From: Gammaproteobacteria bacterium
Lineage (GTDB): Bacteria; Pseudomonadota; Gammaproteobacteria; Steroidobacterales; Steroidobacteraceae
DNA: 64,000 nucleotides
Reading direction: 5' to 3'
Assembly: GCA_016874235.1 (NCBI GenBank)
Contig: VGUJ01000001.1
Coordinates: forward strand, 62,001 to 126,000
Shown: positions 14,801-26,304 of the stretch, piece after piece
Layout: each line of letters opens with the position of its first letter
Numbering within the stretch: the first letter of the stretch is position 1
The notes under the pieces: model-generated
The model's input: only the letters and a program-made list of their open reading frames with translations
What the model was told of the DNA's origin: nothing
Databases searched by the model: none
Program-made: the position numbers and the translations under genes

Positions 14801-17381
14801 ATTTCGCAAGATCGAAGCGATGGATAAACCCGCGATCGCCGCCATCAACGGTGTGGCGCTCGGGGGTGGCATGGAGTTCGCGATGGCCTGTCATGTGCGC
14901 GTCGCCGAGCCACTCGCCACCTTCGGACAGCCTGAGGTTCGCCTCAATCTGTTGCCGGGATACGGCGGCACACAAAGATTGCCGAGACTGCTCGAGCAGG
15001 CGGGTCATCCGTCACCGATCGTGCGTTCTCTCGAGATCATTATGGGCGGCAGAACGCTCGAGGCTGCAGAAGTGCAGGCCGACGGATTACTGCACGCCGT
15101 GTCCGACGAGAACGAAGACGTCTTGGCGCTCGCGACACGACTCGCTCGCGAATATGTCGCTGCACCGGCCGGCCGCAATCTCGTCGCAAAGACCTTCGCG
15201 GCGCGCCGAGCGGCCAATGCCGCTTGGCAATCGGCAGGTCGCGCCGACTTCGTTGCCGCCATCGCCGATTCGGAAGTGCAGCGACTCCTCGCGCAGGCGC
15301 GTGCCGTCGGTCGCGGCCCAACGGCCGAACGGATTTTCGATGCTGTGAAGACGGGTTGGCATCAAGGCATCGGCGCAGGACTCGCTCGCGAGGCGCAGTT
15401 ATTCGCCGAAGCGATCGTCGATCCTCAAGGTGGCAAGGCGGGCATTCGAGCGTTCTTCGACAAGCAGAGCGCACCGTTACCGACGCGCCGCGCTGAAACA
15501 CCCCGACCAGAGAAGGTCGGAGACCTCGTCAAACGAGGCGAGTTGCTGCCGGTGGGCGCCGCATTCTTCCCTGGGCTGACGCCGCTGCCGACATGGCAAT
15601 ACGGTCATGCGGTCGTCAAAGACGAACGAACCGGCGCTCCAGCGCACGGCCTTCCTAAAAACGCCGAGCGGGAAATCATCGTTCCAGTGCCGACACCTGG
15701 CCCGAACGAGGCACTCGTGTATGTGTTGGCGTCCGAGGTCAACTTCAACGACATCTGGGCGATCACCGGCATCCCAGTTTCGCCTTTCGACAATCATGAT
15801 CTCGATTATCAGGTGACGGGCTCCGGCGGCGTCGCGCTGATCGCAGCGGTGGGCAGCGAGGTCAAACGAGAAGGGCGATTGAAAGTCGGCGATCTCGTCA
15901 CGGTGTACTCGGGGCAAAGTGACCTGCTCTCTCCGCTCGCAGCTCGCGATCCGATGTATGCAGGATTTTCGATTCAGGGATACGAAACTGACACCGGTAG
16001 TCATCAACAGTTTCTGCTCGTACAGGGACCGCAGCTACATGCGCTCCCCCCCGATCTCACGCTCGAGGCGGCAGGCTCCTACGTACTCAATCTCGGCACG
16101 GTCGTTAGAGCGCTCTTCACCACGCTGCAGATCGAGAGTGGGAAGACACTCTTCGTCGAAGGTGCAGCGACCGGTACCGGATTCGAAGCACTCAAGAGTG
16201 CTGCGCGTAATGGGCTCACGAGTGTGGGTCTGGTGTCGAGTTCGGAGCGCGCGACGTTCATTGCAGGTCACGGCGCAGCGGGCGCGATCAATCGACGCGA
16301 TCCGCGTTGGGCAAAAGCCTTTACGGCCGTTCCCGAAAGCGCGGCGGACATCGCGGCCTGGGAGCAGGCGGGTGAGCCCATTCTCAAAGAAATGCGTCAG
16401 CAAGCGGGTGGCCGACTTGCAGACTATGTGGTGTCGCATGCAGGACAGGAGTCCTTCCCACGGTCTTTCCAGCTCTTGGCTGAGAACGGCACGCTGACCT
16501 TCTACGGCGCGACGAGTGGCTACTGGTTCTCTTTCGTCGGTAAAAAAGGATCTGCGACCCCTGAAGACATGCTGCGTCGAGCGCGGTTGCGTGCCGGCGA
16601 GGCTGTGCTGCTTTATTACGGCGTCGGCGCACACGATCTACTCGATCCGGTCGGGCTCGAGGCGATCGAGGCGGTACGCAAAGCCGGTGGACGGTTGGTG
16701 GTGGCGACGGCCACCGACGCTCAGCGAGAATTCGTGCAGTCACTGGGTTATGGCGATGCGGTTCGCGGTGTCGTGTCCATCGAGGAAATCCGTCGTAAAG
16801 AAGGTGCGGACTTCGATTGGCCGTCGGCGCTTCCTGCGATGCCCGACTCGAAGAAAGACACGGTCCGATTCAAAGAGGCCGTGCGGCAATTTCAAGATCG
16901 CACCATGAAGCCCTTCGGCGGAGCGATCGGACGCTGGTTACGCTCACCGGACAATCCCCGCGGTTACCCAGATCTCATCATCGAGCGTGCCGGGCACGAC
17001 GCCCTCGCAGCCTCGACGTCGCTCGTCAAACCTTTTACGGGACGCGTCGTGTTTTGCGAGTCGATGGCGGGGCGCCGCTATACGTTCTATGCACCGCAGG
17101 TGTGGATGCGACAGCGACGAATCATCATGCCCACCGCCACCATTGCAGGAACCCATCTTTGCAACGCCTTCGAAGTTGCCCGCATGAACGACATGATCGC
17201 GGCGGGGCAACTCGAGGTCAGTCCACCCACCATCGTTCCGTGGGGCGACCTGCCGGCTGCACACCAGTCAATGTGGGACAACACTCACGCTGGAGCGAAT
17301 TACGTTGTTAACCATGCGCTGCCACGGATTGGGCTGCGCTCGCGCGATGAACTTTTCCAGGAATGGGGAGCGGCTCGATGA
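11886..17381 (+). CDS. pcs: Trifunctional propionyl-CoA synthase (acyl-CoA synthetase / enoyl-CoA hydratase / enoyl-CoA reductase fusion)
   Basis: Converts 3-hydroxypropionate, CoA, ATP and NADPH to propionyl-CoA through 3-hydroxypropionyl-CoA and acryloyl-CoA. Three domains are visible. An AMP-forming ligase spans ~1-880, with YTSGSTGKPKG near 433 and the catalytic lysine in PETRSGKYMRR near 816. A crotonase-fold hydratase spans ~890-1150, with glutamates in GGGMEFAMAC (~997) and FGQPEVRL (~1017), spaced as in classic enoyl-CoA hydratase. An MDR-type reductase spans ~1230-1831, with ASEVNFNDIWAITGIP and nucleotide-binding GAATGTG near 1426. Length (1831 aa), domain order and many remembered stretches match Chloroflexus Pcs (~1820 aa). 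The frame is unbroken. GGAG lies 10 bases before ATG. Its stop overlaps the mcr start as ATGA. Confidence 0.95.
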   Translation: MSSVNGSMDAAPTPVAITPPSASVNPFVHRAAWQAARDACVADPGAFHGDIASREIHWFEPKVGSHGAWITRDPEGRWHGFDARTGDPVDPSLPQSYRPWSRGLDDSEAPFYRWFSDALTNACFNEVDRHVLAGHGAEAALWFEGDRWDQSQDGGRGAPVVSYSVSRKQLMLEVARCALALRQLGLKTGDRIAINMPNIPEQIYWTEACKRLGIVYTPVFGGFSDKTLSDRIHNAGARIVITADGGYRNAQIVAFKEAYTDPALDGYVPAETAIAAVTQALESLGLEMLHANAILEGARKTVANEITLERSDVMRGVGRALEGIAGLSPSAASRIRTAIASALVTTPPRVDTVVVVKHAGQADIVWRPERDRWAHSLTDAAMQILLDGARKAGHAVANEAQLLALDDRAFVAAIWATVPPEPLDAEFPMFFIYTSGSTGKPKGVVHVHGGYVSGVAYTLRVAFDARAGDVMYVVADPGWITGQSYMICGALTTRVTTVIAEGVPVFPSAGRFASIIERLKVNIFKAGVTFLKTVMTDPQNVEDVRAYSRASLRVATFCAEPTSPVVQQFGMELVTPWYTNSYWATEHGGIVWTHLFGNADFPLRADAHTYPLPWIMGDVWLADSEADASGTVVARAAAVGEKGEIVIAAPFPYLCRTIWGAEGDFKVEGRRVVRQWRGDFERYRKTYWTRWKGKLAYTQGDFAVKYADGGFSLHGRSDDVINVSGHRLGTEEIEGAILRDKQVNPDSPVGNVIVVGAPHAQKGLTPLAFVRPAPGRKITAEDRRRLIETVRQEKGQVAIPEDFVEVTQFPETRSGKYMRRMVRALVEGQEVGDTSTLRNPESIAELRSAIAEWQARQRVADEQQLFEDFRYFRIHYHSLATPSIGKRRSKKAALRIAVITINNPPVNALNERALDELNIVIDHVARRDDVKAVVFTGQGTSAFVAGADIRQLYEDAHTLDEALPLPNNAHLAFRKIEAMDKPAIAAINGVALGGGMEFAMACHVRVAEPLATFGQPEVRLNLLPGYGGTQRLPRLLEQAGHPSPIVRSLEIIMGGRTLEAAEVQADGLLHAVSDENEDVLALATRLAREYVAAPAGRNLVAKTFAARRAANAAWQSAGRADFVAAIADSEVQRLLAQARAVGRGPTAERIFDAVKTGWHQGIGAGLAREAQLFAEAIVDPQGGKAGIRAFFDKQSAPLPTRRAETPRPEKVGDLVKRGELLPVGAAFFPGLTPLPTWQYGHAVVKDERTGAPAHGLPKNAEREIIVPVPTPGPNEALVYVLASEVNFNDIWAITGIPVSPFDNHDLDYQVTGSGGVALIAAVGSEVKREGRLKVGDLVTVYSGQSDLLSPLAARDPMYAGFSIQGYETDTGSHQQFLLVQGPQLHALPPDLTLEAAGSYVLNLGTVVRALFTTLQIESGKTLFVEGAATGTGFEALKSAARNGLTSVGLVSSSERATFIAGHGAAGAINRRDPRWAKAFTAVPESAADIAAWEQAGEPILKEMRQQAGGRLADYVVSHAGQESFPRSFQLLAENGTLTFYGATSGYWFSFVGKKGSATPEDMLRRARLRAGEAVLLYYGVGAHDLLDPVGLEAIEAVRKAGGRLVVATATDAQREFVQSLGYGDAVRGVVSIEEIRRKEGADFDWPSALPAMPDSKKDTVRFKEAVRQFQDRTMKPFGGAIGRWLRSPDNPRGYPDLIIERAGHDALAASTSLVKPFTGRVVFCESMAGRRYTFYAPQVWMRQRRIIMPTATIAGTHLCNAFEVARMNDMIAAGQLEVSPPTIVPWGDLPAAHQSMWDNTHAGANYVVNHALPRIGLRSRDELFQEWGAAR

Positions 17382-20300
17382 TCGTCAGGACGACCCAGGT
17401 CAAAAAGACTCAGAAATCGAAGACCAAGACCGCTGCGCCTAAACGTGCTGTAAGCAAAGCCAAGGCTAAACGCTCGCCGAAAAAGCCAGCGACCTCGACC
17501 GCACGACACGGCCGCTCGCGCCCACTGCGGCTCGCCGGAAAAGTGGCGCTCGTATCGGGAGCCGCCGGAAACATCGGCGAGGTGATCGTCCGGCGCTATC
17601 TCGAAGAAGGCGCCCGCGTCGTGATGGTGGGGCGAAACCGCACGAAGCTCGAGGCAGCGCGCGAGAAACTGCTCGCCAAAACCGGTGCGCCCGCGAGTCA
17701 TGCCTATGTTCTCGATTTTGATGCGTCGGACTCGGGACAGGCCCGATACGGCACCGAAGCAGTGATGCGTCAATTCGGTCGTATCGACATCCTCGTCAAT
17801 AACGCGGGCTCGGCAGGTCCTAAAGCACCTATCGAAAATCTACCGCTATCGCGTGAAGAACTCGATGCGATGCGTGCCGGCGGCGCGACCGACACCGAAA
17901 CCGTCGCCGATGCTGCAGGCAACCTGCTTGGTCTCAGCTGGAACATGGTCCGTGCGACCGCGCCTTATTTACAAGCCGGCGCCTCGATCATCAACATCTC
18001 CACGATTTTTTCGCGTACCAAATATTTTGGACGCGCGGCGTACGTTGTACCCAAGTCGGCCCTCAATGCTTTTTCGAAGCAGCTGGCGGTTCAGCTAGGT
18101 CAGCGTGGCATTCGCGTCAATACCGTGTACCCGGGGCCCATTGAGAGTCAGCGGATTCGTACGGTCTTCAAGGCGATGGATCAGCTGCGCAAAGCGCCAG
18201 ATGGTACGACGGCCAACGATTTCACCTCGACCATGGCACTTTCCAGAGCGACGCCTGAGACAGGGGCGACACACAGCTTTCCGAGTGTGGAGGATGTCGC
18301 CAATACCATCGTCTTTCTCGGTAGCGACGAATCCCAGGCCTTCAGCGCCCAAGGGTTCGAAGTCACCAACGGCATGCAGGTCATGCAAGAGTCCCGGTCG
18401 ACGTGGGTATCGCGACCCGAGCTTCGGACCGTCGATGGCACGGGATCAACCGTGCTCGTCGCTGCGGGTGATCAAGTCGCGGATGCTTTGATGATCGCTC
18501 GTATTCAAGCGAGCTGTGGTGCCCGAGTTCTTTTGGGGCTCGGAACGGAAGAGGCCGTTCAGGCCGCCGCCGCCGCTCTGCAAAACAGTGACGCCGACCG
18601 ACGCATCAAGCCCGTTCTCTTCGATCGCCATCGCCCCGACACGCTCGCGGTATCGCTTGCGTCGGTCGATCCGTCGCAAGGATTACACGGTGCCGTCGTG
18701 TTACCCGCTTTCGGCCACTGGCGTTTCAAAGCGCCGCTGTCGGAGGCGAGCGATTCGGATGTCGACGCTTTTTTGAAGGGCGAGCTCGCGGGCGCCATTG
18801 GTATCGCAAGAGAGCTCTCCCGTCTTTGGCACCGACTTGCGCCGGCTGGCGTCAGTCCGCGAATTATCTTCATGTCAAATGGCAGCGATGAATCCGGGGA
18901 TACCTACGCCGACATTCTTCGGGCGGGCATCGAGCAACTTGTTCGCGTCTGGCGTGACGAAAGTGAAACGCAAGTCAAATCCGGCGATCGTGCCGTGCTC
19001 GAATGGTCGAACCAGATTCTCCGCTGGTCGAATACCGAAGAAAACGGACTACTCTTCGCTGCCGCGCAGGCTGCTCGTTTGCTCTACACGAAGCGACGTG
19101 TACCGCAGGTGAATCTCTACATGCCTGCTGCGATTGTCGATGCGACGGGCTCCACGCGTCCGAACTTCGGCTGGATTGAATCGCTCATGGGCTTGCACCT
19201 CGGTAAGTGTGTGTTGATCACGGGGGGCTCGGCCGGCATTGGAGGCCAACTCGGCCGCTTGCTCGCGATCTCCGGCGCACGAGTGATGCTCACCGCCCGT
19301 CGCGAAAATCAGCTCATCGATCTGCGTGACAGCATCGTTCGAGAGCTCGAAGAAATCGGCTATAACCGAGCGCATGAGCGAGTACGGATTCTGGCGGACA
19401 TTGACGTCGCCGATGAAACAGCGCTGGTGAAATCGGTAGCCGCGACTCTGAAGGCCTTTGGCCGAATCGATTATCTGATCAACAACGCTGGAGTCGCCGG
19501 CGCGGAACAGATGGCAGTCGATTTGTTGCCTGAAGACTGGCGCAACACGCTGCACGCCAATCTGGTGTCGAACTATTCGCTCATCGAAAAAGTCGTACCG
19601 ATGATGAAGCAGCAGGGGTCGGGCTACATCCTCAATGTCAGTTCCTACTTTGGCGGCGAAAAGTATATCGCCGTGCCGTATCCGAACCGATCCGACTACG
19701 CCGTCTCAAAAGCCGGCCAGCGCGCCCTCGTCGAAAACCTTGCACGATTCGTAGGGCCTGAGATTCAAATCAACGCCATTGCGCCTGGACCTGTCGAAGG
19801 GCAGCGGCTCAAGGGCAAGGACGGCAAGGCGGGGCTCTTTGATCGACGCGCGAAGCTGATCCTTGAAAATAAGCGATTGAATCAGCTCCATGGTGCGGTG
19901 CTGAAAGCGCTCGCGGATGGCGCAACGCTCGACGCAGTCCTTGGCGCCATGTGCTCCAACGACATCGGTTTGCTGCAGTCGCCCGAGGTTCCAGCGGCGT
20001 TGCGCGACCTTAGCGTCAAATTGAAAACTGAACCTAATGGCTCAGACGAGCCCACCTACTCGTCCTTACATTTTTTGATGACGCGTTCGATAGCGACTCG
20101 GTTGATCGCGCGGTTGTGCAACGGCTGCTTGATGCCACAGCGTATCCATCATGATCTGGCTGAGCAGTGGATTCTCGACCTTCCCGTTCCGCCGGAGCCC
20201 TTCATCGATCCTGCCCGTATCGATATTGAGGCAGAGAAAATTCGGACGGGCGTGATCGGCATGCTGCATCTCAATCGCATGCCGACCGAAACGGATGTGG

Positions 20301-21163
20301 CGCTCGCCACGGTGTTCTTCATGGCCGACCGCGCAATCTCGGGCGAAACCTTCGAGCCCTCGGGTGGCTTACAACAGGAACGCACGATTACCGAGCGTGA
20401 ACTCTTCGGTCGTGCCAAGCCTGAGCGTGTACGCCGGATGGAAGGCGAGACGATCTGGCTCATCGGTGAGCATATGTCTGAACCGCTCGCCGCGGCCGCG
20501 AAGTTATTCCTGGCAGAGGGTCATGTGGGCAGTATCGTGATGCTGACGCGTACTGCGGCGGCTGGTGATGCCATCCGTTTCGCATTGGGCCGCGCGTTGG
20601 GCCACGACCGAATTTCCTACCTGACTGTCGGGGATGACCTCGAGGAGGGGATGGATACCGCGTTTGCCAACCATGGCCCGCCAGCGGCCGTGGTTTCCAC
20701 GCCGTTTGCGCCGATTCCGCGCGCGTTGTTTGGCATCGAAGGCAAGGACCATCTTGCAGCACCCGAGTTTTCTGCGCTCATTGAGATGAACCTCACACAT
20801 CATTTCCGTGTGGCACGGAAAGTATCCTTGTTCAAGGGCGCCCGACTCATTCTCACTTCGCCGGATGTCCCAGCCGGCGGGACGCTTGCGCAGTTTGCGA
20901 TGGCGAATTTCATCAAGACCACGCTGCATGCATTCACGGCGACACTCGGCGTCGAAAATGAGCGTCTACCGACGTCGGTACCGGTCAACCAGGTAAATTT
21001 GACGCGACGCATGCGGAGCGAGGAGCCGAGAGATGCGGCTGAACAAGCTGAGGAGTATCAACGCTACGCGCATGCCGTCTTGTTGGCGGCTGCGCCGATC
21101 GTCGAGGCACAGGAGAGTCGTTATCGAGCTCGAATCTACCGAGGGCTTGCGATCACGGTATGA
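17378..21163 (+). CDS. mcr: Bifunctional malonyl-CoA reductase (3-hydroxypropionate-forming)
   Basis: Reduces malonyl-CoA with two NADPH to 3-hydroxypropionate through malonate semialdehyde. It is a tandem of short-chain-dehydrogenase halves. Half 1 has SGAAGNIGE (~60) and a YVVPK active-site pair (~221); half 2 has ITGGSAGIGG (~613) and YAVSK (~773). In the Chloroflexus enzyme the N-half reduces the semialdehyde and the C-half reduces the thioester. The match to that ~1219-aa protein runs to the end (ANFIKTTLHAFTAT, then RGLAITV). Start ATG 17378 overlaps the pcs stop (ATGA) and has GGGGAG 7 bases upstream, so I prefer it to the track start 17363. An unusual basic extension of ~50 residues precedes the first Rossmann motif. 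Confidence 0.95.
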   Translation: MIVRTTQVKKTQKSKTKTAAPKRAVSKAKAKRSPKKPATSTARHGRSRPLRLAGKVALVSGAAGNIGEVIVRRYLEEGARVVMVGRNRTKLEAAREKLLAKTGAPASHAYVLDFDASDSGQARYGTEAVMRQFGRIDILVNNAGSAGPKAPIENLPLSREELDAMRAGGATDTETVADAAGNLLGLSWNMVRATAPYLQAGASIINISTIFSRTKYFGRAAYVVPKSALNAFSKQLAVQLGQRGIRVNTVYPGPIESQRIRTVFKAMDQLRKAPDGTTANDFTSTMALSRATPETGATHSFPSVEDVANTIVFLGSDESQAFSAQGFEVTNGMQVMQESRSTWVSRPELRTVDGTGSTVLVAAGDQVADALMIARIQASCGARVLLGLGTEEAVQAAAAALQNSDADRRIKPVLFDRHRPDTLAVSLASVDPSQGLHGAVVLPAFGHWRFKAPLSEASDSDVDAFLKGELAGAIGIARELSRLWHRLAPAGVSPRIIFMSNGSDESGDTYADILRAGIEQLVRVWRDESETQVKSGDRAVLEWSNQILRWSNTEENGLLFAAAQAARLLYTKRRVPQVNLYMPAAIVDATGSTRPNFGWIESLMGLHLGKCVLITGGSAGIGGQLGRLLAISGARVMLTARRENQLIDLRDSIVRELEEIGYNRAHERVRILADIDVADETALVKSVAATLKAFGRIDYLINNAGVAGAEQMAVDLLPEDWRNTLHANLVSNYSLIEKVVPMMKQQGSGYILNVSSYFGGEKYIAVPYPNRSDYAVSKAGQRALVENLARFVGPEIQINAIAPGPVEGQRLKGKDGKAGLFDRRAKLILENKRLNQLHGAVLKALADGATLDAVLGAMCSNDIGLLQSPEVPAALRDLSVKLKTEPNGSDEPTYSSLHFLMTRSIATRLIARLCNGCLMPQRIHHDLAEQWILDLPVPPEPFIDPARIDIEAEKIRTGVIGMLHLNRMPTETDVALATVFFMADRAISGETFEPSGGLQQERTITERELFGRAKPERVRRMEGETIWLIGEHMSEPLAAAAKLFLAEGHVGSIVMLTRTAAAGDAIRFALGRALGHDRISYLTVGDDLEEGMDTAFANHGPPAAVVSTPFAPIPRALFGIEGKDHLAAPEFSALIEMNLTHHFRVARKVSLFKGARLILTSPDVPAGGTLAQFAMANFIKTTLHAFTATLGVENERLPTSVPVNQVNLTRRMRSEEPRDAAEQAEEYQRYAHAVLLAAAPIVEAQESRYRARIYRGLAITV

Positions 21164-23764: not shown

Positions 23765-24373
23765 TCAGCCGATATGTGAAAGCTTGAGAAGTTTGTTGAG
23801 ATCCTCGAGCAGACCTTTCGGATTCTGCGTGGAATCGAATCGCATCATCAGATTACCGAGAGGGTCGACTACGAAAATGTAGGTCGTGGAGCCTGATGCC
23901 TCGCGCGGAAATTGTTCTAGCCACGTCGGTGAGGCGGCATCGGCAAATTGAATAGTCTCCAAGCCTGGATGTTCGGCTGCCAGAAACGCCGTGTCGCAGC
24001 AGTTTTTTTCGGCGAGAAAGACTCGTTGGACGCGGTCCATGTCTTCGGCGAGTAGCAGCCGCGTTTGACGGATGGTCCACAGCGCCTGCCGACACGCAGC
24101 ATCACACGCCCCCTCGTCGATGTAGAGGAGCGTCCATTTCCCACGGAATAAGTTTTCCCTCGACGGTGAGCCATCGGGTGTGACGAAACCGTGGTCGGCA
24201 AGCGGCTTGGCGGGCGAGATCAGCTCACCGTGATTCGTACCGCCAGCGGGGCGCCAACCTCCGACGTAGTACAGCCAAAACGCCCCGAGCAGCGGCAGGA
24301 AGAAAAGTGCGGCAAGGCCGACCAATACCCCTCGACCCGCGGTGGGCGTATGAAATTTTTGGGTCTCAGTCAT
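23765..24373 (-). CDS. SCO1/SenC-like thioredoxin-fold membrane protein of the cox locus
   Basis: A 202-aa protein with one N-terminal membrane span (~17-37) and an extracytoplasmic domain with an SCO-like layout. KWTLLYIDEGACDAACRQ (~85-100) carries a CxxxC pair in the place of the SCO copper ligands, and later there is TYIFVVDPLGNLMMRF. It is shorter and more divergent than canonical SCO1, and a conserved distal histidine is not obvious. A role in Cu(A) or thiol chemistry for oxidase assembly is inferred from its position between surf1 and ctaA. Its ATG overlaps the surf1 stop (ATGA). Confidence 0.78.
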   Translation of the reverse strand: MTETQKFHTPTAGRGVLVGLAALFFLPLLGAFWLYYVGGWRPAGGTNHGELISPAKPLADHGFVTPDGSPSRENLFRGKWTLLYIDEGACDAACRQALWTIRQTRLLLAEDMDRVQRVFLAEKNCCDTAFLAAEHPGLETIQFADAASPTWLEQFPREASGSTTYIFVVDPLGNLMMRFDSTQNPKGLLEDLNKLLKLSHIG

Positions 24374-25119
24374 GCTTTATTCCGTTTCTTTAAGTTCATG
24401 ATCACAAACAGCACCAGCAGCAGTACCGCAAAACTCCACCACTGGATCGCATAAGACCAGTTCTGCTCGGGGCCCTTTGCATAGGGCTTCCAGTCGCGTC
24501 GATACCCCTCGGGTGCCGATGCGTCGAGCAACAACATTCGCGACTCGAGCCTCTCTGGGTCGACTCCCAGCGATCGGGCGAGTTCCGCTGATTGCGGGTA
24601 CGCGGTCACGCGCGGCCACTCTCCAGAGACGGCTGGCGGCGCGCGCCCTCCTGCGAGACCCGCTGTGGGCAACTCATCGAGCCGACCTAACACTTGGACC
24701 TCGCGACCGGTCTGCGCTACGCGAACATCAGGCAGACGATCGCGATAGCCTTCGAACGGCACCCAACCTCGATTCACCAACAACCAGCGCCCGTCTGCGA
24801 GCTGCAGCGGTGTCAGCACCTCGTATCCCGCGCGACCGTCGCGCGTACGATTGTCGAGCAAAAACTGACGCGAATCATCCCAGCGGCCGTCCGTCTCGAC
24901 TTGCGTATAACGCGGCAAGGCGGTCGAGGATTTGGAGCCGAGCGCGACGATGCGTTCCGCTTGGGTCGTAAAAGCGTCGCCCAGCTGTTGCTTGAACTCC
25001 GCACGACCCCATTGCCAACGGCCGAGGCTGATGAAGAGAACAAGAAGCAGCAAGGTGACGATGGTCATCAGCCACGACGGAGAAAAAACCCTGCGACCGA
25101 CGGCGATTCTGAGCGGCAC
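24370..25119 (-). CDS. SURF1-family cytochrome oxidase biogenesis protein
   Basis: A 249-aa protein with the SURF1 layout: an N-terminal span (~18-35) ending in the family signature LGRWQWGRAEFKQ, a periplasmic domain containing LLDNRTRDGRAGYEVLTPL and LLVNRGWVPF, and a C-terminal span followed by a short basic tail (LKKRNKA). SURF1 proteins help insert heme A into oxidase subunit I. The start GTG 25119 has no visible SD site and lies seven bases downstream of a TATTAT hexamer on the same strand, so the transcript could be leaderless. It is coupled downstream to the SCO-like gene by an ATGA overlap. Confidence 0.92.
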   Translation of the reverse strand: MPLRIAVGRRVFSPSWLMTIVTLLLLVLFISLGRWQWGRAEFKQQLGDAFTTQAERIVALGSKSSTALPRYTQVETDGRWDDSRQFLLDNRTRDGRAGYEVLTPLQLADGRWLLVNRGWVPFEGYRDRLPDVRVAQTGREVQVLGRLDELPTAGLAGGRAPPAVSGEWPRVTAYPQSAELARSLGVDPERLESRMLLLDASAPEGYRRDWKPYAKGPEQNWSYAIQWWSFAVLLLVLFVIMNLKKRNKA

Positions 25120-25138
25120 ACGCCTATAATAACGGTTA
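25119..25138. promoter_or_regulatory. Symmetric -10-like element shared by surf1 and the DUF2909 gene
   Basis: Between the divergent GTG (25119) and ATG (25138) start codons lies TATAATAA. Read on the plus strand it is a perfect TATAAT at 25125-25130, about seven bases before the ATG. Read on the minus strand it is TATTAT, about seven bases before the GTG. Neither gene has an SD site. No good -35 box is obvious on either side, so this remains a prediction. Confidence 0.45.
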
Positions 25139-25350
25139 TGGAACTCTTGCGGCTTTTTGTCGGACTCGTCATGTTGGGCATCGTAGTCAGCCTGGGCTCA
25201 GCGCTGTTCCACCTCATGACCGACAAAGGCGACTCAAAGAAGATGGTCAGAGCGCTTACCGTTCGCGTGGGCTTGTCGGTGGGCCTCTTCTTGCTGCTCA
25301 TGGTGGCGTGGGCCACCGGACTCATCCAGCCGCTCGGCGTAGCCCGCTGA
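25138..25350 (+). CDS. DUF2909-type twin-transmembrane protein of the cox cluster
   Basis: A 70-aa protein with two membrane helices (residues ~4-24 and ~44-64) separated by a short charged loop (HLMTDKGDSKKMVRALTVR). Small proteins of this type (DUF2909/HIG1-like) recur in gammaproteobacterial cytochrome oxidase loci, where they probably act in assembly or stability. The track gives a 218-aa frame from 24694, but that part is antisense to surf1, so I start at ATG 25138 directly after TATAAT. It is divergent from surf1 and convergent with ctaE, with a terminator between. Confidence 0.85.
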   Translation: MELLRLFVGLVMLGIVVSLGSALFHLMTDKGDSKKMVRALTVRVGLSVGLFLLLMVAWATGLIQPLGVAR

Positions 25351-25357
25351 AAAGCAA

Positions 25358-25379
25358 ACGGGCCGGTTTCCCGGCCCGT
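25358..25379 (-). terminator. Rho-independent terminator at the end of the ctaE operon
   Basis: A perfect nine-base stem, ACGGGCCGG / CCGGCCCGT, with a four-base loop. On the minus strand it is followed by TTGCTTTTC, so it should end the ctaC-D-G-E transcript. As an inverted repeat it may also slow transcripts from the convergent DUF2909 gene, although the plus-strand side lacks a T tract. Confidence 0.72.
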
Positions 25380-25416
25380 CGGATCATCTAAAGTGTGGCG
25401 ACCGCCACCGTGATCG

Positions 25417-26304
25417 TCACACCCAGTAGACGAACACGAAGAGCCCCAGCCAGACCACGTCGACGAAGTGCCAATACCAGGCGACGGCCTCGAAGCCGAA
25501 GTGTCGTTGTGGTGTGAAGTGACCCTTCATGGTTCGGAACCAGATGACGAGCAGCATGATGGCGCCGAGCGTCACGTGTACACCGTGGAAGCCCGTCAGC
25601 ATGAAGAACGTCGAACCGTAGATACCGGTTGCGAGTGTGAGTCCGAGCTCAGTGTAGGCGTGGACGTACTCGTAGGCCTGCAACCCGACGAACAAGAAGC
25701 CGAGCAAGAACGTTGCCGCCAAGAAGATATTGAGGATCTTGCGATTACCTTCTTTGAGGGCGTGGTGTGCGATGGTGATCGTGACACCTGAGAGCAGCAG
25801 GATCGCCGTGTTGATCGCAGGCAAGCCGAAGGCCGGAATGGTTTCGAAGGACCCGTCATCACGAGGACCGAGCGCTGCCGGGCCGTTCGTCGGCCACGTC
25901 GCATTAAAGTCTTGGAACAACAGCAGCTTGTTGAAAATTTTTACGCCCTCGCCGCCGATCCAGGGAACCGAGAGCGTGCGTGCGTAGAAGAGCGCACCGA
26001 AAAACGCCGCGAAGAACATGACCTCGGAGAAGATGAACCACAACATCCCCATTCGGAATGACTTGTCTACCTGCATGTTGTACATGCCGTGCTGATGCTC
26101 GTTGATGACGACCGCGAACCAGCCGACGAACAAACCGATCAGCATGATGACGCCGATCGCGAACACCCACGGGCCGTACCACTGGTTGAGCCAGCCGCAG
26201 AGACCGATCATGAACACGAAGAGCGTCAATGAGCCGTAAATCGGCCAAGGGCTCTCATGCGGTACGTAATATTTGTCGGCGGCGTGTTCTGTGGCATTGG
26301 CCAT
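25417..26304 (-). CDS. ctaE: Cytochrome c oxidase subunit III
   Basis: Seven-span subunit of the aa3-type oxidase, 295 aa. Recognisable segments are the N-terminal YYVPHESPWPIYGSLTLF, the FSEVMFFAAFFGALFYAR helix (~95-112), the ALKEGNRK loop (~185), and a C-terminal end TGFHGVHVTLGAIML...FEAVAWYWHFVDVVWLGLFV. It stabilises the catalytic subunit and its proton-uptake path. It is encoded ten bases after ctaG in the usual order and followed by a terminator. Confidence 0.96.
   Translation of the reverse strand: MANATEHAADKYYVPHESPWPIYGSLTLFVFMIGLCGWLNQWYGPWVFAIGVIMLIGLFVGWFAVVINEHQHGMYNMQVDKSFRMGMLWFIFSEVMFFAAFFGALFYARTLSVPWIGGEGVKIFNKLLLFQDFNATWPTNGPAALGPRDDGSFETIPAFGLPAINTAILLLSGVTITIAHHALKEGNRKILNIFLAATFLLGFLFVGLQAYEYVHAYTELGLTLATGIYGSTFFMLTGFHGVHVTLGAIMLLVIWFRTMKGHFTPQRHFGFEAVAWYWHFVDVVWLGLFVFVYWV

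Follow-up and report, generated by a model that had tools for sequence, protein, structure and literature searches.

A symmetric -10 element between surf1 and a DUF2909 gene, with predicted leaderless starts on both sides, conserved in a genus of Steroidobacteraceae

Introduction

Symmetric promoters were reportedly first described in a 2021 paper from the group of Warman, Grainger and colleagues. In such promoters, as that group's work sets out, one near-palindromic -10 element is read on both strands, the two transcription starts lie about 18 bp apart with reciprocal -7T and -11A bases, and no -35 element is needed in principle (PMC10268837, PMC12825309). In the bidirectional promoters of E. 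coli and Salmonella it is the 18-bp separation of the starts that lets the -7T and the -11A coincide (PMC10268837), and opposing polymerases are unable to bind together at a bidirectional promoter (PMC12825309). Leaderless output is not discussed in either of these papers, and the terms "leader" and "start codon" are absent from the text of PMC12825309.

Leaderless mRNAs are described from Mycobacterium, Zymomonas and Caulobacter, where a -10 element lies directly upstream of an ATG or GTG with no SD site (PMC4633059, PMC7566282). In mycobacteria, only ATG and GTG can serve as leaderless starts, TTG being accepted as well where a leader and an SD site are present (PMC4633059). In E. coli, leaderless messages led by GTG are poorly translated. 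Caulobacter has many leaderless mRNAs.

The locus described here, between the divergent genes surf1 and DUF2909 of a gammaproteobacterium, has, with its transcription starts as predicted, the features of the symmetric -10 promoters listed above, but differs from them in that both start codons lie at the predicted start sites and in that several gene pairs of one genus show this spacing on both sides. It likewise has the -10 placement and the lack of SD sites of the leaderless systems, but here two messages would share one element. We conclude that the kind of promoter proposed, bidirectional and of sigma70 type, is already known and that the new part would be the leaderless start codons on both sides. 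Bidirectional promoters and leaderless translation, usually studied apart, would be joined here in a regulatory region that could hardly be smaller and still serve two genes.

Features of the surf1/DUF2909 Intergenic Gap

The window, the 64,000-nucleotide stretch of DNA that was analysed, comes from a 1.8-Mb draft genome. The features at the locus are as follows (window positions).

24370-25119, minus strand: surf1, cytochrome oxidase assembly factor (Pfam PF02104, E=3e-38)
25117-25119, minus strand: surf1 GTG start codon (CAC on the plus strand), with the predicted +1 at 25119
25120-25124, no strand: 5-nt spacer ACGCC from the surf1 GTG to the core, of fixed length and varying letters (21/21 genomes)
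25125-25131, no strand: shared symmetric -10 core TATAATA, from sequence and conservation
25125-25130, plus strand: DUF2909 -10 hexamer TATAAT, separated from the ATG by 7 nt
25126-25131, minus strand: surf1 -10 hexamer TATTAT, separated from the GTG by 6 nt
25132-25137, no strand: 6-nt spacer ACGGTT from the core to the DUF2909 start
25138-25140, plus strand: DUF2909 ATG, with the predicted transcription start at 25137-25138
25138-25350, plus strand: DUF2909 gene, a hydrophobic protein of 70 aa, probably a membrane protein (Pfam PF11137, E=3e-22)
25357-25380, minus strand: terminator-like hairpin with a 10-pair stem and a T-rich tail, between coxIII and DUF2909
25417-26304, minus strand: coxIII (Pfam PF00510)

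The original prediction had placed a palindromic -10 element between the two divergent genes in a gap of 18 bases, and both points held. The gap from the surf1 GTG (25119, minus) to the DUF2909 ATG (25138, plus) is 18 nt and reads ACGCC-TATAATA-ACGGTT, in which TATAATA provides TATAAT on the plus strand (6/6 matches to the consensus) and TATTAT on the minus strand (5/6). The self-complementary part is the 7-mer TATAATA (pattern TATNATA) around its middle base; the eighth base, an A, lies outside it. Transcription starts were predicted seven bases past position -7, the usual distance from a -10 element. As had been claimed, they would coincide with each start codon or precede it by a single base, at 25119 on the minus strand and at 25137 or 25138 on the plus strand, 18-19 bp apart. 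For starts at 25119 and 25137, the A at 25126 and the T at 25130 would serve as -11A and -7T in both directions. The claim that neither gene has an SD site also stood: none is present at a workable distance before surf1 or DUF2909 in the window sequence.

A consensus promoter scan found no -35 hexamer in either direction and no -35/-10 pair, and no extended -10 TG is visible at TATAATA. The T favoured at -18, which is common in bidirectional promoters but not obligatory, is missing on both sides, with C or A at 25119/25120 for the plus strand and A at 25137 for the minus strand. With the -35, the extended -10 and the -18T all lacking, the proposed promoter could be a weak one or depend on an activator. 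Neither an Rfam nor a tRNA scan of the window gave a match.

We think it likely that TATAATA forms the core of a promoter of sigma70 type that works bidirectionally, with leaderless messages produced both ways. RNA polymerase would bind TATAATA in either orientation, one at a time; the minus-strand RNA would have the G of the surf1 GTG as its first base, and the plus-strand RNA would begin at the A of the DUF2909 ATG or one base before it. With starts at the codons, both messages would therefore be without a 5' untranslated region, and translation would proceed by direct loading of ribosomes on the 5'-terminal AUG or GUG.

Gene Context and Termination After coxIII

On the minus strand, surf1 heads an oxidase-assembly block in which it is followed by the frame at 23765-24373, ctaA/COX15 and a ctaB/UbiA-type gene (identified from open reading frames and Pfam). 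The block coxB-coxA-ctaG-coxIII lies upstream of surf1 on the same strand and ends with coxIII. The hairpin at 25357-25380 is oriented so that it would stop coxIII messages before surf1, and since it separates the two genes, surf1 probably needs its own promoter in the window genome. A similar hairpin was found at the loci of relatives G018, G023, G005, G015, G010 and G006. It was not seen after coxIII in several other relatives, so read-through into surf1 may occur in some of them.

This possibility bears on a one-way alternative, in which TATAAT would drive DUF2909 only, surf1 would be expressed by read-through from the cox operon and the GTG would merely abut the promoter. The lack of a visible terminator in those relatives agrees with it, as does the better match of the plus-strand hexamer to the consensus. 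In addition, in other genera of the family the -10 element of DUF2909, mostly TATACT, is often only 0-2 nt from the surf1 start, which is too close for this element to give a leaderless surf1 as well. However, a one-way promoter leaves unexplained the terminator of the window, the constant 5-nt spacer on the surf1 side and the A at the seventh base of the core (20/21 genomes, see below), as well as two further gene pairs with a two-sided arrangement. We consider it rather unlikely.

Conservation of the Element Within the Genus

The locus was present in 21 of 24 same-genus genomes. The named near relatives are metagenome assemblies; several carry the label Steroidobacteraceae, and many have isolate names that refer to lakes or rivers. 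Many of the conserved sites are found in genomes related to one another and should not be counted as separate events. In all 21 genomes surf1 starts with GTG, the spacer to the core is exactly 5 nt with variable letters, and the T and the A that would serve as -7T and -11A in both directions never change. TATNATA is the core in 17 genomes, TATACTA in three and TATACTT in one, so that TATNNTA describes 20 of the 21, with A as the seventh base in 20. The minus hexamer, the weaker of the two, is TAGTAT or AAGTAT in four relatives.

The surf1 genes average 65% DNA identity and their four-fold sites are 44% identical between pairs. Given this divergence and the varying letters of the spacer, its fixed length is not merely the result of recent ancestry. 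No gap interrupts the alignment of the surf1 proteins between the GTG and the end of the first membrane segment. That the element is kept in divergent species suggests selection for the proposed bidirectionality, as opposed to transcriptional noise.

In the surf1 tree the genus forms one clade (100/97), within which resolution is poor. The sister genomes L046 and L059 were without the two-sided layout, and in the family's other genera the element is mostly TATACT or TATAAT, with a different distance to the surf1 start. On these grounds the layout at surf1/DUF2909 looks specific to the genus, and an ancestral origin was rejected.

Two of the surf1 loci of this genus are carried by contigs titled Klebsiella pneumoniae MAG (L093, CAMCBU010000008.1; L106, CAMAQZ010000010.1). 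The titles look mislabelled.

Leaderless and Leadered Starts of DUF2909

The DUF2909 start varies in its distance from the core, being 6 nt after it in 11 genomes and 8 nt in four, with a leader of 20-63 nt in the remaining six. The 15 close starts (6-8 nt) have no SD site (0/15) and are ATG in 11 cases and GTG in four. Five of the six leadered starts have an SD-like site, and four of the six are TTG. The two classes differed in both respects (Fisher P of 0.0003 for SD and 0.0025 for TTG, with relatedness ignored). TTG was thus seen only with a leader, a pattern like the mycobacterial rule (PMC4633059).

In the course of evolution, the symmetric core would have been fixed 5 nt from surf1 and the DUF2909 leader would then have been lost in most species, an order read from the surf1 tree, which is poorly resolved within the genus.

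Recurrence of the Layout at Other Gene Pairs

The pattern CAY-N4-7-TATNATA-N4-7-RTG was found at 56 sites in the 24 genus genomes against five for the reversed pattern (totals here and in other pattern searches were hand-summed from tables). In 35 genomes of the other genera of the family, there were 23 sites against 20 reversed. The enrichment of the genus over the rest of the family had P of about 1e-5, a value to be read with the sites in related genomes not being independent. The near-equal counts outside the genus are what would be expected if a -10-like motif overlapped a short intergenic gap by chance. As an account of the element within the genus this is scarcely credible, because it conflicts with conservation across 21 divergent genomes and with genus-specific enrichment; the 21/21 conservation and the 56 sites against five argue that the element is more than a chance motif.

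Much of the 56 sites, besides surf1/DUF2909, was made up of two gene pairs, which we propose would be served by the same layout. Proteins at the recurrent pairs were named from reading the sequences and not from a family search. Between xth and pyrE the layout was present in all 20 readable genus loci, and in 19 of them each of the two spacers is 5 nt long. The xth start codon is in little doubt, because the N-terminus of exonuclease III fixes its position. For xth there was no match in the window's own genome, so the xth/pyrE counts come from relatives. The second pair, a HAD hydrolase and a PHP phosphoesterase, had the layout in 20 of 21 loci, including that of the window's genome (G000:C9:16752-16775).

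Among the other families of the order, none of 18 readable xth/pyrE loci had the leaderless layout. Several of these gaps resemble those of the genus in having TATCATA or TATGATA between the same genes, but unlike in the genus the xth start is well downstream of the core, so leaders are expected.

A short palindrome between divergent genes, common to several gene pairs, could also be an operator for a dimeric regulator. Against this, the core is only 7 bp and fits the -10 consensus whichever strand is read, it lies as far from the start codons as a promoter does from its start, and the genes served are functionally unrelated housekeeping genes. We regard an operator as highly improbable.

Further occurrences were observed. 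A divergent pair of BolA-like and Sua5-YciO-like genes (L215, G008:C137) has CAT-N5-TATCATA-N7-GTG, with matches in G020 and G004 and a similar site in G014. In another genus of the family, a divergent purM-like/secreted-protein pair (L218 and L219, from G036 and G055) has CATGCCGCTATAATAGCCGACATG, a doubly leaderless layout. The pattern has a third match in the genome of the window, at G000:C2:143331. It adjoins an rluC-like gene on one side and an unsupported frame of 37 codons on the other, and for the latter reason was not counted as a pair.

GTG was retained at the predicted leaderless start of surf1 in 21 of 21 loci (L013-L042) and of xth in 18 of 20 (L225-L243). As one transition would give ATG, its retention suggests selection for GTG at these genes.

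Leaderless-Type Starts Across the Genome

Spacing counts across the genus, from which the AT-rich genome G016 was excluded, pointed in the same direction. TATAAT-N6-7-ATG occurred 191 times in the 23 remaining genomes, against 36 for a spacing of N10-11 and 25 for the reversed pattern, and TATNAT-N6-GTG occurred 168 times against 58 reversed. Within 364 kb sampled from the window's genome, consisting of 300 kb of stretches and the window, a -10-like hexamer lay at -13/-12 in 9 of 303 called genes; these were the two most populated positions, in a modest peak. A cruder count for ATG spacing in that sample was weaker (P=0.017). SD-like motifs preceded 44% of genes in the sample against a background of 14%, which indicates that leaderless starts coexist with ordinary ones.

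The original prediction had called two leaderless messages from one symmetric element unusual for this group. Leaderless mRNAs are few in E. coli, which agrees with that statement; within the genus it does not hold, given the excess of close spacings and the recurrence of the doubly leaderless layout. The underlying proposal, of one symmetric -10 and two leaderless messages, is well supported by comparison (the 5-nt spacing, the core, the absence of SD sites and the recurrence). From these we infer the start sites, the use of the element by polymerase in both directions and leaderless translation, with the reservation that the plus-strand start may be 1 nt upstream of the ATG.

The spacing counts also bear on whether the AT-rich stretch might act in translation, as a ribosomal protein S1 site or an unstructured start region within longer messages, and not as a promoter of surf1. 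AU-rich stretches before starts without an SD site can bind S1, an ambiguity raised in PMC5397173. An S1 site, however, would need neither an exact 5-nt spacing nor a self-complementary TATNATA, and among the distances from TATAAT to ATG, 6-7 nt was specifically enriched over 10-11 nt. A translation aid is, in our view, very unlikely.

Implications of a Shared Symmetric Promoter

Extending the bidirectional leaderless promoter to the genus as a whole, we lean, on balance and with some hesitation, towards the following view. This freshwater genus of Steroidobacteraceae, known from metagenome assemblies, would have at several divergent housekeeping pairs a recurrent minimal regulatory unit, some 18 bp long, in which a symmetric -10 element is flanked by a leaderless start on each side. 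Its ribosomes, unlike those of E. coli, would accept leaderless GUG well. Since only one polymerase could bind at a time, competition would couple the two genes of a pair, and neither gene would have a 5'-UTR for regulation.

The repeated gene pairs would form a natural set for studying polymerase competition with no intervening 5'-UTR. The same reading predicts that a leaderless GUG is tolerated by a gammaproteobacterial ribosome, and gene-calling programs that rely on an SD site may put such starts in the wrong place.

Other Observations in the Window

The frame between ctaA and surf1 (23765-24373, minus) encodes a 202-aa protein that had no Pfam match. Its sequence contains a C-x3-C motif, and it is possibly an assembly factor of the Sco type. 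Elsewhere in the window, a 1266-aa open frame (17363-21163, plus) appears to have several short-chain dehydrogenase-like domains in one chain.
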